Made by a program: the position numbers and the translations under genes
Part shown: positions 29,411-43,095 of the stretch, piece after piece
Position numbering within the stretch: position 1 is the first letter of the stretch
Layout of the letters: each line of letters opens with the position of its first letter
Assembly: GCF_009734445.1 (NCBI RefSeq)
Contig: NZ_CP046457.1
Coordinates: 186,001-250,000, forward strand
Direction: 5' to 3'
Length of the DNA stretch: 64,000 nt
From: Candidatus Syntrophocurvum alkaliphilum
Lineage (GTDB): Bacteria; Bacillota; Syntrophomonadia; Syntrophomonadales; Syntrophomonadaceae
The notes under the pieces: model-generated
Told to the model about the DNA's origin: nothing
The model's database searches: none
The model's input: the letters and a program-made list of their open reading frames with translations, nothing else

Positions 29411-29478
29411 CACGAAGGAAGCGCGGGGACGGTTCTCTTGCTTCCTTCGGGAAGCAAGAGAACCGTCCCCGCGTTTCC
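29411..29478. repeat. Inverted REP pair forming a 24-bp hairpin with TTCG loop
   Basis: The two head-to-head cores GGGGACGGTTCTC and GAGAACCGTCCCC are perfectly paired from CGCGGGG (29422) to CCCCGCG (29473), closed by TTCG (29446-29449) with a C-G pair, the most stable tetraloop. The outer GGAAG/TTTCC pairing is imperfect. There is no T run. It lies 46 bases before the purD ATG. Confidence 0.9.
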
Positions 29479-37895: not shown

Positions 37896-39638
37896 ATGGA
37901 TTTTAAACCATTAAAACCGATAGCACTTATATGTCTAATAATTTTTTGTGTTAGTGTTGTTATTTTAATTGGATGCAATAGTGACTATGAAGTAAAATTA
38001 AAGGCTAACCCAGCAGGCGCAGGGCAGGTAACAGGTGAAGGTAGTTATAAGGCAGGCGAAACAGTTGAAGTTATAGCAGAAGCAAAGGAAGGATATGTAT
38101 TTAAAAAGTGGACTGAGAATGGTGAGAAGATAAGTGATGATGAAAAATATCAATTTACTATTGATGATAATGTGAACTTAATTGCTGAATTTTCTGCAGT
38201 AGAGACAGGAGTGAAGACAAGAACTAAAATTGTGGATAATTGGACTATCTCTGAAACTATTATAGATGAAAACAAGTTGAATCCTGTTGTTAAAAAAGAG
38301 GGATGGTATAGTAATGAAGGCAATTATAGTATTGCTGATATAGGAGATAATTACTTAGCTAAATATTCTTATAGTACAGAAACAGTAAAGTTTATGAAAA
38401 AAGATAGCTTAGAAGTAGTAGATAAAATGGAACAAGTACTTGTTAGAGGACTTCGCAGCATAGAATTTTTAGGGGAAGACCATTTTTTATTTAAAAGTAG
38501 GAATAATGAAAAATCTTATATTTATAAAATAAACGATGAAGGTATAAGTATAGTTAAAGAGTTAGATTTATGGAAATCTGGCTTAACTAAAATTGATGAA
38601 GATGAAAGATTGTCGCAAATGTTATCTCAAGAGTTTATTTATATCACCCCTAAGCATAGTAATGTAGGTGAATACCTATTTATTTATGCTGATTATTATG
38701 GAATGTTTCAGGTTGAAGAACCTCCACGCTTAAATGAACCCTTTCTTAAGGTTTTTAAGTTTGAAAATGGTGAACTTATAAAGCTGGCAAATGATTTACT
38801 AGAAGAATCTTTACTAACAACAGATATTATTAAATATAATGATAAAAAAGCAATACTAGCAACTGGCTGTGAAGGTTTTATACAAATCAACTTAGATGAT
38901 TTTTCTCTGGAAAAGTTAAATATTGGTGGTAAATATAATCTAGCTAAAGAAAATAGACCCTTTTCAGGTTCAGAACAATACGAAAATCATTATATAGCTC
39001 ATTCATTCAGAGGAGTATCATCAGAAGGTGCTATATTGGTGCGTACACAGATACCATTACCTAAATGTCATGGATGGGTAAAACAACTGTGGGCTCCTAC
39101 TAACGATGGTAGTTTTACTATAGTGGCACAAAGTGATGTCTACTCAAAAGGACAGATTGGTTCGAATGATGATTTACTAGGGGAATTTTTTCCTCATACA
39201 TTACATGACGATAGGTGGGTGTCAATGTACAGAAGTCAAACTGATGTAGAAGGATTTGAAGGTGGGGGTGTTTTTGCCCTCTTAAAATTAGATAATGAAA
39301 AGGTTTTACAAGATGCTCAAACTAGTCTTGATAACGAACTTCCAGAAATAAGCCAATACTTAGATATGGAAGTAGACTTAAAACACCTATTGAAAAATGC
39401 AGGAATTACAAACTTACCTTACTTTATATCTTGGGAAGCAAATGATGGACAAAAATTTTCTAGTAATGAAAACCCTATAACACTTTCAGGTGAAGAAAAG
39501 TTCATTTTTGGTCGTATTACAGAAAATCAAATTGATATAACACAAGTAAACGGGGATATAAACTTAATAGGAGTTGACGAGGCTAAAGAGCAAGTTTACC
39601 TCCAGGTAAAACAAGACCTTTATATAGTAAGACTATGA
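37896..39638 (+). CDS. Lipoprotein with InlB-type bacterial repeat domain
   Basis: A 580-residue predicted lipoprotein. The signal is LIPICLIIFCVSVVILIGC-like, with Cys at about residue 28 (lipobox LIGC). Residues about 32-95 match the bacterial repeat (InlB B-repeat/Flg_new-like) pattern: VKLKANPAGAGQVTGEGSY, AGETVEVIAEAKEGYVFKKW, ENVNLIAEFSA-like. The remaining about 480 residues are beta-rich with irregular repeats (YLFIYADYYGMF, KVFKFENGELIKLAND, KAILATGCEGFIQINLDD), suggestive of a beta-propeller, which is an inference. Its TGA stop lies inside a REP arm (39635-39682). A GGGGAGG site precedes the ATG. Confidence 0.75.
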   Translation: MDFKPLKPIALICLIIFCVSVVILIGCNSDYEVKLKANPAGAGQVTGEGSYKAGETVEVIAEAKEGYVFKKWTENGEKISDDEKYQFTIDDNVNLIAEFSAVETGVKTRTKIVDNWTISETIIDENKLNPVVKKEGWYSNEGNYSIADIGDNYLAKYSYSTETVKFMKKDSLEVVDKMEQVLVRGLRSIEFLGEDHFLFKSRNNEKSYIYKINDEGISIVKELDLWKSGLTKIDEDERLSQMLSQEFIYITPKHSNVGEYLFIYADYYGMFQVEEPPRLNEPFLKVFKFENGELIKLANDLLEESLLTTDIIKYNDKKAILATGCEGFIQINLDDFSLEKLNIGGKYNLAKENRPFSGSEQYENHYIAHSFRGVSSEGAILVRTQIPLPKCHGWVKQLWAPTNDGSFTIVAQSDVYSKGQIGSNDDLLGEFFPHTLHDDRWVSMYRSQTDVEGFEGGGVFALLKLDNEKVLQDAQTSLDNELPEISQYLDMEVDLKHLLKNAGITNLPYFISWEANDGQKFSSNENPITLSGEEKFIFGRITENQIDITQVNGDINLIGVDEAKEQVYLQVKQDLYIVRL

Positions 39639-39682
39639 GTCAAAGGGGACTGAGTCAAAGGGGACGGTTCTTTTTGACTCAT
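39635..39682 (-). repeat. REP-like locus containing the stop codon of the lipoprotein gene
   Basis: ATGAGTCAAAGGGGAC, then TGAGTCAAAGGGGACGGTTC followed by TTTTTGACTCAT. The TGA stop of the upstream gene is bases 2-4 of the repeat. The left arm is duplicated. Confidence 0.85.
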
Positions 39683-39727
39683 AGGACAATAAAAATATAG
39701 AGAAAAATAGGTTAAAGGATAGAAGTT

Positions 39728-40848: not shown

Positions 40849-40935
40849 CAAGGGCAAAGGGAGTTTTGAGTCAAAGGGGCGAGTCAAAAGGAACCGTCCC
40901 CTTTGACTCAAAACTCCCTTTGCCCTTGAATTTTT
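40849..40935. terminator. 31-bp perfect hairpin terminator with REP in the loop
   Basis: Left arm CAAGGGCAAAGGGAGTTTTG continuing AGTCAAAGGGG (40849-40879). The right arm 40898-40928 is its exact complement, followed by AATTTTT. The loop and inner stem are a REP unit (GAGTCAAAAGGAACCGTCCC and its CTTTGACTC). Confidence 0.85.
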
Positions 40936-40959: not shown

Positions 40960-40968
40960 TGCTATGAT
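40960..40968 (+). promoter_or_regulatory. Extended -10 promoter candidate for pcrA-ligA
   Basis: TGCTATGAT, an extended -10, lies 43 bases before the pcrA ATG. No good -35 is found at 16-18 bases, so the call depends on the TGN extension. Confidence 0.4.
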
Positions 40969-41010: not shown

Positions 41011-43095
41011 ATGAATATACTTGATAATTTGAACGAGCAACAGCAACAAGCTGTTTTACATATTAATGGGCCTTGTATGGTGTTAGCCGGAGCCGGGAGT
41101 GGGAAAACTCGTGTGCTAACTAGGAGGATAGCCAACCTTATTGATAATGGTGTTTTACCTAATTCGATATTAGCTATAACATTTACTAATAAAGCAGCAC
41201 AGGAAATGAGGAGTAGGGTGGCTGCTATGATTCCAGATTATGCTGGTCAATGGATTCAAACCTTTCATGCGGCATGTTATAAGATATTAAGAATGGATAT
41301 TGAGAAAATTGGCTACAACAAAAACTTTTCTATTATTGATGATACTGAAGGAAAGACTCTTATAAAAGGCATTTTAAAAGAGGAAAATGACTATGAAACT
41401 AAACCAGAGGATATTCTTTATTCAATTAAGTTTGTAAAAAACGGCTTAATTAATGCTGAGAACTATTATAAGAATATAAATGCTCCCCAACATGTTAAGG
41501 AGAAATATTATAGGCTTTATAGAATTTATAATGCTAGGTTAAAAGAATTAAACGCTTTAGATTTTGAAGACTTAATTGGACTATGTATTCGCTTATTTAA
41601 AGAACACCCTGATGTTTTAGAAAAATATCAGCAATGGTTTAAATATATAATGATAGATGAGTACCAAGATACAAACTATGCACAATATCTATGGGCTAAT
41701 TTATTAGCAGATAAAAATAAAAATATATGTATTGTAGGTGATCCTGACCAGTCTATATATAGCTGGAGGGGAGCTGAACCATATAATATTAAAAGGTTCT
41801 TAAAGGATTATCCTGAAACTAAAGTTATAAAGTTAGAGGTAAATTATCGCTCAACTAGACTGATTTTAGAGGCTGCAAATTCAGTAATTAAGAATAATCA
41901 AGATAGAGAAGAAAAAAATTTATATACTGCAAATGGACAAGGTGATAAAATAGTTCATTTTTGTGCAGGTGATAGTTATCAAGAAGCAAAGTTTATTGCA
42001 GATGCAATTAGTGAATTAATAGAACGTGAAGGCAAAAAATACAGTGATTGTGCTATATTCTATAGAACACATGCACAGTCACGTCTTTTAGAGGATTCCT
42101 TGTTGTACAAGTATATTCCTTACCGGATTATTGGGGCTAGGAAGTTTTATGAAAGAAAAGAAGTAAAGGATATAATTGCCTACCTTAAGGTGATATGTAA
42201 CTATAGTGATTTAATTAGCTTTAGAAGAATAATTAATGTACCACGTAGAGGTGTAGGGGATAAAACCCTAGAAAAAATAGAAGAATATGCTGCTGTAAAC
42301 GAAATAAATTTATTGGATTCACTTGCATATTCAACTTCAATACCTGGAATAAGCAAAAAAATGGGGGATAAACTAGAAGATTTTCATGGAATGATAAAAT
42401 ATTTTTCTACACTAGCAGATGCTAATATGCCATTAAAAGAACTAATAGATCAAGTTTTAGATATGACTGGTTATATAGAAGATTTGAAGAAAAGTAAATT
42501 AACTGATATTGAATCGAGAATTGAAAATATACAAGAGATAAAATCCCTTGCAGTTGAATTTGAAGCAGAGGGTGGAGAAGGCTTAGAAGATTTTCTAGCC
42601 CAGATTGCATTAGTGCAAGATACAGATGATCTAGACCATTCAGATGCAGTATCTTTAATGACTTATCATGGAGCGAAAGGTCTAGAGTTTCCAGTAGTGT
42701 TTATGACAGGAATGGAGGAAGGAGTTTTTCCATCTTATCGTACAGAAACTGCAGAGGAGATGGAGGAAGAGAGAAGGTTGTGTTATGTTGGTATTACTCG
42801 TGCTCAAGAACGTCTTTATTTAACGAATACTATATCTAGATTGCTTTATGGTTTCGAAAGAAATAATCCTCCTTCAAGATTTTTAAAAGAAATCCCAGAC
42901 GAACTACTTCGCTTACCTAGTGAAAGGGTAATTAAGAAAGAGATTTTAAGTGAAGGGGACAAGGTTGCGCATCGAAAATTTGGAATTGGATTTATTACTA
43001 AAATAACTGATGATGAAATCGCTATTATTGATTTTGACCGTGCTGGTGTGAAAATGCTTCGGTTAGATATTGCTCCTTTGGAGAAAATAAGCTAA
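41011..43095 (+). CDS. pcrA: ATP-dependent DNA helicase PcrA
   Basis: A 694-residue superfamily 1A 3'-5' helicase acting in repair and displacing RecA or polymerase. The helicase motifs are in order: Q-motif LNEQQQQAVLH, Walker A AGAGSGKT at residues 26-33, motif Ia ITFTNKAAQEM, motif II IDEYQDTN, motif III VGDPDQSIYSWRGA, motif IV VNYRSTR, motif V LMTYHGAKGLEFPVVF and motif VI ERRLCYVGITRAQERLYL. A C-terminal Tudor-like tail (GDKVAHRKFGIGFITKI) matches PcrA rather than Rep. Somewhat short of the Bacillus 739 residues. It is followed by ligA 28 bases later, the usual Firmicutes order. Confidence 0.97.
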   Translation: MNILDNLNEQQQQAVLHINGPCMVLAGAGSGKTRVLTRRIANLIDNGVLPNSILAITFTNKAAQEMRSRVAAMIPDYAGQWIQTFHAACYKILRMDIEKIGYNKNFSIIDDTEGKTLIKGILKEENDYETKPEDILYSIKFVKNGLINAENYYKNINAPQHVKEKYYRLYRIYNARLKELNALDFEDLIGLCIRLFKEHPDVLEKYQQWFKYIMIDEYQDTNYAQYLWANLLADKNKNICIVGDPDQSIYSWRGAEPYNIKRFLKDYPETKVIKLEVNYRSTRLILEAANSVIKNNQDREEKNLYTANGQGDKIVHFCAGDSYQEAKFIADAISELIEREGKKYSDCAIFYRTHAQSRLLEDSLLYKYIPYRIIGARKFYERKEVKDIIAYLKVICNYSDLISFRRIINVPRRGVGDKTLEKIEEYAAVNEINLLDSLAYSTSIPGISKKMGDKLEDFHGMIKYFSTLADANMPLKELIDQVLDMTGYIEDLKKSKLTDIESRIENIQEIKSLAVEFEAEGGEGLEDFLAQIALVQDTDDLDHSDAVSLMTYHGAKGLEFPVVFMTGMEEGVFPSYRTETAEEMEEERRLCYVGITRAQERLYLTNTISRLLYGFERNNPPSRFLKEIPDELLRLPSERVIKKEILSEGDKVAHRKFGIGFITKITDDEIAIIDFDRAGVKMLRLDIAPLEKIS

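Follow-up and report, generated by a model that had tools for sequence, protein, structure and literature searches.

The perfect hairpin between gerW and pcrA in the stretch of 64,000 nucleotides analyzed here (the window), which comes from Candidatus Syntrophocurvum alkaliphilum, is best interpreted as a repeat pair common in bacteria, here present in a damaged copy, and is an element of a known kind. We tentatively favor a REPIN (inverted REP doublet) with arms of the GAGTCAAA family, which would have been internally deleted, carries a symmetric flank, and probably serves as a terminator. The preliminary description of this locus had placed a REP unit within paired arms at the position of the gerW terminator. 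The arms were indeed perfectly paired and are not obviously REP sequence, but the insertion of one REP was not sustained, and the hairpin does not show that REPs seek out hairpins.

Anatomy and Position of the Hairpin

A perfect 31-bp inverted repeat with arms at 40849–40879 and 40898–40928, separated by 18 nt, was located between a gerW-family gene (Spore_YtfJ, PF09579; 40470–40832, + strand) and pcrA (41011–43095, + strand), whose best NCBIfam match was TIGR01073 with 817 bits, below the cut-off of 911. This confirmed the 31-bp stem reported earlier, which exceeds every other perfect stem of the 64-kb window in length; the runner-up of 24 bp is a REP pair. Folding as RNA gave −64.4 kcal/mol with a z-score of −10.9, and none of 200 dinucleotide shuffles folded equally well, while folding as DNA gave a z-score of −11.5. 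The stem is real and lies far above chance expectation.

From left to right on the + strand, the structure consists of the 19-nt outer left arm CAAGGGCAAAGGGAGTTTT (40849–40867), GAGTCAAAGGGG (40868–40879), a single C, the complete REP unit GAGTCAAAAGGAACCGTCCCCTTTGACTC (40881–40909), and the 19-nt outer right arm (40910–40928), which is the perfect partner of the left one. Exact genome copies of the outer left arm are confined to this hairpin, as a search with 18 of its 19 nt found no copy besides the opposite arm. The REP unit belongs to the GAGTCAAA arm family and holds the core GGAACCGTCCCC at 40890–40901, and GAGTCAAAGGGG is an inverted outer half of the unit, which may represent the left-partner remnant of a doublet. 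The long stem is composed of 19 bp of non-repeat sequence and 12 bp that pair this inverted half with CCCCTTTGACTC, the unit's 3′ half (40898–40909, + strand), with zero unpaired bases between the outer arm and the REP arm. The unit's own left arm is located in the 18-nt loop (40880–40897, + strand), which is made of the C, this arm, and the initial portion of the core. A non-repeat outer part had been recognized properly in the preliminary description, though its length is 19 bp and not 18 bp; likewise, the inner part does contain the REP core, but the extra inverted half had been missed.

The stem ends 5′ of AATTTTT (40929–40935, + strand), a possible U tract of a putative intrinsic terminator, in which a T5 tract (40931–40935) follows AA. 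An extended −10 element, TGCTATGAT, was found before pcrA (40960–40968, + strand), and a similar element of the pattern TGnTAnnAT occurs upstream of pcrA in 30 of 37 family loci, compared with 8% in shuffles. Because of this element, gerW and pcrA seem to be transcribed separately, the hairpin lying between the two units. As no other strong stem separates gerW from the −10 element, the hairpin probably acts as the gerW intrinsic terminator today, whatever its origin. It combines a G+C-containing stem with a U tract 3′ of a gene, 16 nt past gerW, and resembles rho-independent terminators in being a stable hairpin past the stop codon with a T-rich tail ahead of the next −10 element. Unlike the usual terminator, it has a 31-bp stem, an 18-nt repeat-derived loop, and a tail starting with AA, and a simple terminator scan that allows loops of 3–8 only did not list it. 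The earlier name of GerW terminator hence suits the position and the T5 tract, while the function itself is an interpretation of sequence, on which the hairpin is a plausible terminator.

The REP Family and Its RAYT Genes

The core GGAACCGTCCCC gave 13 matches in the window at up to 2 mismatches, compared with 0.45 expected, and 132 matches in the 2.36-Mb genome at up to 1 mismatch, compared with 1 for a control. It is a short palindromic repeat in many copies, as expected of a RAYT-associated REP. The arms GAGTCAAA..TTTGACTC occur at 40 places by exact pattern, some of which overlap. For a survey of the copies, stretches around the listed core matches were fetched and 195,208 bases were scanned, and the counts obtained apply to the matches listed. 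Among these, 157 core matches were found at up to 2 mismatches, some surely by chance. Sorting of arm families and tails, which was done partly by eye, assigned the right arms of the listed matches to the GAGTCAAA family (42), TAGAACA-like (57), GGAAGCA-like (37), or none (21). The neighbor layout among the same matches comprised 47 inverted pairs with the A side inward, which supports the doublet reading of the gerW copy, versus 1 in the opposite arrangement, with 2 tandem pairs and 63 single places.

No constant GTAG or CGTC tag, as known for two super-families, was seen by eye beside the arms of aligned units, and the units were therefore not filed under these classes. Unlike their tetranucleotide-tagged stem, a constant 12-nt core lies here between variable arms; ACGG/CCGT does occur within the core. 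Exact matches to the 12-mer GGGGACGGTTCT were found in 48 of 54 family genomes. Within one related genus (three genomes, L207–L239), the core GGGGACGGTTCT/AGAACCGTCCCC was observed between more than 10 arm sequences, again a constant core with variable stems. A literature search by 10-mers of the REP core found no paper on it, as judged by title among the matches listed.

Several copies showed features of their own. At 39633–39684 of the window, an ORF (37896–39638) runs into a GAGTCAAA unit that has a repeated half; the TGA stop codon of the ORF also forms the first bases of the TGAGTC arm, and the stem is extended outward by CTAT/ATAG pairs. A doublet at 29422–29473 whose REPs have GCTTCC-type arms forms a 24-bp perfect stem with a loop of 4. 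Within G000:C1:1903372–1914661 of the genome, several doublets have inner spacers that are completely symmetric but divergent in sequence (ATTTC..GAAAT, AACTG..CAGTT, and ACCGC..GCGGT), as if both arms changed together.

Matches to PF01797 (Y1_Tnp) were obtained for three genes of this genome (L141, L142, and L143), whose NF047646 scores were 79.2, 79.5, and 82.2 bits, one of them exceeding the cut-off of 80. The RAYT gene at G000:C1:1438846–1439643 is flanked by GAGTCAAA units at 1438763 and 1439684, so that the genome has a RAYT flanked by the hairpin's own repeat; the gene at G000:C1:1913229–1913990 is flanked by TAGAACA-like units, and that at G000:C1:2286246–2287019 by GGAAGCA-like units. 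A distinct arm family with an identical 12-nt core is present beside each gene, and the loci are apparently three REPtrons with one arm type each. Since it is flanked by the hairpin's own arm family, the RAYT at C1:1438846–1439643 is likely the enzyme cognate to the hairpin's REP. As in the REPINs and BIMEs described in PMC3116915, the REPs of this family are inverted around a short spacer, fold into one hairpin, and are intergenic, and RAYT genes are flanked by the same repeats.

Origin of the Long Palindrome

Entry of one REP into a hairpin loop had been taken as the simplest reading, but it leaves the inverted half unexplained, and if a REP had entered an ordinary hairpin loop, some unpaired bases would normally remain, whereas there are none here. 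Internal deletion of a doublet is preferred to a single REP in a loop because the inverted half also needs explaining. As judged by its sequence, the anatomy fits a REP doublet minus the inner half of one partner, that is, one whole unit plus one inverted half where two inverted REPs are expected of a REPIN or BIME. An inverted doublet of the GAGTCAAA arm family would have stood after gerW, and approximately 24 bp between its partners, namely the inner half of the left REP and the spacer, would have been lost, leaving one REP and an inverted outer half inside a long palindrome. Decay of a REPIN to a long palindrome with one REP was stated by Bertels and Rainey in their account of P. fluorescens SBW25 (PMC3116915). 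The present copy differs from REPINs and BIMEs in that one partner is an outer half alone and perfect pairing continues through the outer arms for another 19 bp. Among the 63 single-core places of the matches listed, an exact GAGTCAAAGGGG to the left of the core is unique to the gerW copy, and a spanning perfect stem longer than 14 bp is present in 2, the other of which (1378218) is a doublet with a damaged partner core. The location between gerW and the pcrA −10 element also supports the doublet reading.

The 19-bp outer arms would be a symmetric flank of the doublet and not a prior independent hairpin, and their symmetry probably arose or persisted because one arm was copied by fold-back when the DNA replicated. 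This origin was chosen because no unpaired base remains, similar tails occur on other doublets, and a 7-mer is shared with the REP. The 7-mer CAAAGGG is present in the outer arm and the REP half in the correct orientation (P = 0.003 against window 19-mers and 0.012 against shuffles), while the fuller likeness is weak (8 of 12, P = 0.085). Derivation of the outer arm from a REP by motif score is suggestive for the 7-mer but not at 8 of 12. Among the matches listed, 10 of 47 inverted doublets have at least 15 outer perfect pairs, with a maximum of 28, and a 31-bp arm with a 19-bp flank is therefore in range. A repeated REP half was seen by eye in the tails of 7 of these 10; a weak one is present in doublet 1910957, one solely beyond the paired part in 1913139, and none in 1242758 (TTTATCTT). 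The doublet at G000:C1:1242743–1242819, which lies between AAGATAAA and TTTATCTT with an 8-bp paired flank unlike the REP half, is the closest parallel to the gerW hairpin. No other doublet among the matches listed has an equally long symmetric flank without visible REP likeness, which speaks against the doublet-flank reading, as does the weak fuller likeness of the outer arm.

The preliminary description had also supposed that palindromes are targets of this repeat, which would place many copies inside unrelated palindromes. However, fewer than 15 outer perfect pairs were counted in 37 of the 47 doublets among the matches listed, where the arm alone gives 7–8, and most of the longer-paired doublets carry repeated REP halves. 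The related genus, which has 41 inverted pairs in three genomes, gave the same picture: 27 of the 28 doublets examined are below 15, and the one with at least 15 has a repeated half. Targeting of palindromes is hence not supported by these doublets. The scanned stretches contain 96 perfect stems of at least 12 bp (among the matches listed), 72 of them with a core within or near, though such proximity is no test of association in stretches chosen around REPs. The longest core-less stems, 20 and 17 bp at G000:C1:1567360–1567402 and 1355975–1356012, are each approximately 25 bp or less from a REP unit. One doublet locus of genus g22 was traced into four relatives, where the intergenic sequence is too divergent to show the prior state, and two doublets are orthologous between genomes G035 and G021. 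A literature search on REPs with terminators, loops, or palindromes found nothing on point.

We give a real, if clearly minor, chance to an adjusted form of the insertion reading, in which a pre-existing gerW terminator, whose stem measured 19 bp, gained a REP doublet at its hairpin tip, and the doublet later lost its inner left half. The distance of 16 nt from the gerW stop and the T5 tract would suit such a terminator, and hairpins after gerW are usual in relatives. The AAAGGGAG..CTCCCTTT stem type, which 18 of 54 family genomes have in hairpins, two of these hairpins being in this genome, fits an ordinary terminator and counts against the doublet-flank reading. REP dimers within palindromes have been described in other bacteria (PMC3733652), with complementary arms on both sides of the REP material as in the gerW hairpin. 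Their outer palindrome is common to many family copies, whereas the outer arm here is unique in the genome, and in two of the three published cases the palindrome was not found without the REP. The older terminator would require the doublet to have entered a 38-bp palindrome precisely at its midpoint with zero loop bases remaining, other doublets lie mostly outside unrelated palindromes, and an exact-pattern search of the 54 family genomes found no REP-free copy of the complete outer stem closed by a short loop.

Comparison of the gerW–pcrA region was made with family genomes of other genera. gerW was found upstream of pcrA in none of the best 37 of 80 Syntrophomonadaceae-type pcrA loci, although several of these 37 contigs have just 164–1000 bases before pcrA, and no PcrA match was present in the 29 gerW loci of relatives (L032–L060). 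As this adjacency is absent, the relatives have no orthologous sites for the comparison proposed earlier, and no relative has an intact doublet at this place, which counts against the doublet reading. Hairpins after gerW exist in many relatives, yet they differ, even between genomes whose GerW proteins are 71–74% identical. Genome G002 (L051) has a REP-free look-alike after gerW, AAAGGGAGGTTTTG compared with AAAGGGAGTTTTG of the outer arm, which is the best match to the outer arm among 130 hairpins in 739 kb and keeps the older-terminator model alive; it also outscored 6000 random windows, though these seldom contain hairpins. The two GerW proteins nearest to that of G002 (71 and 74% identical) have quite different hairpins downstream. 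Inheritance of the G002 hairpin is therefore unlikely, and it was treated as a chance likeness to a common stem type.

Protection of mRNA 3′ ends and attenuation of read-through have been proposed for REPs elsewhere. It is unlikely, in our estimate, that the hairpin shields the gerW mRNA 3′ end from exonucleases or attenuates read-through and is no true terminator, a proposal that concerns use and not origin and is compatible with the other explanations. The very stable stem just past the gerW stop would serve this use, and the ends of REP pairs are merely slightly T-rich (23 of 94 compared with a 17% background, among the matches listed), while the T5 tract immediately downstream and the separate pcrA −10 element argue against it. 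The same excess of T-rich tails was judged unpersuasive for the REP family acting as terminators. PMC3733652 mentions the proposed mRNA-protection or attenuation role of REPs.

Template switching, by which a single REP after gerW would have had 31 nt of its right side copied backwards onto the left without ever being a doublet, is distinctly improbable. A single event would account for the inverted half together with the left outer arm, the two arms match exactly over all 31 nt, and mutations by template switching at quasipalindromes are known from E. coli (PMC7202029). However, the inverted half needs no special event, as doublets are common here and always in the same orientation (among the matches listed), and no clear microhomology was seen by eye at the junction. 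It is more doubtful still that constant-core REP doublets can enter the single-stranded tip of a terminator hairpin exactly at its centre, and that terminators, or arms taken from them, seed the varied arms across Syntrophomonadaceae.

Implications for REP Doublets and RAYTs

The internally deleted doublet would illustrate, on a concrete case, the decay of a REP doublet to a long palindrome that retains a single REP, and it cautions against taking nested hairpins of this sort for terminators that received an insertion. The spread of REPs would be tied to terminators if the insertion model held. The wider family has one core, several arm types, and, within this genome, a RAYT for each main arm type, which makes it a good system for the study of RAYT recognition.
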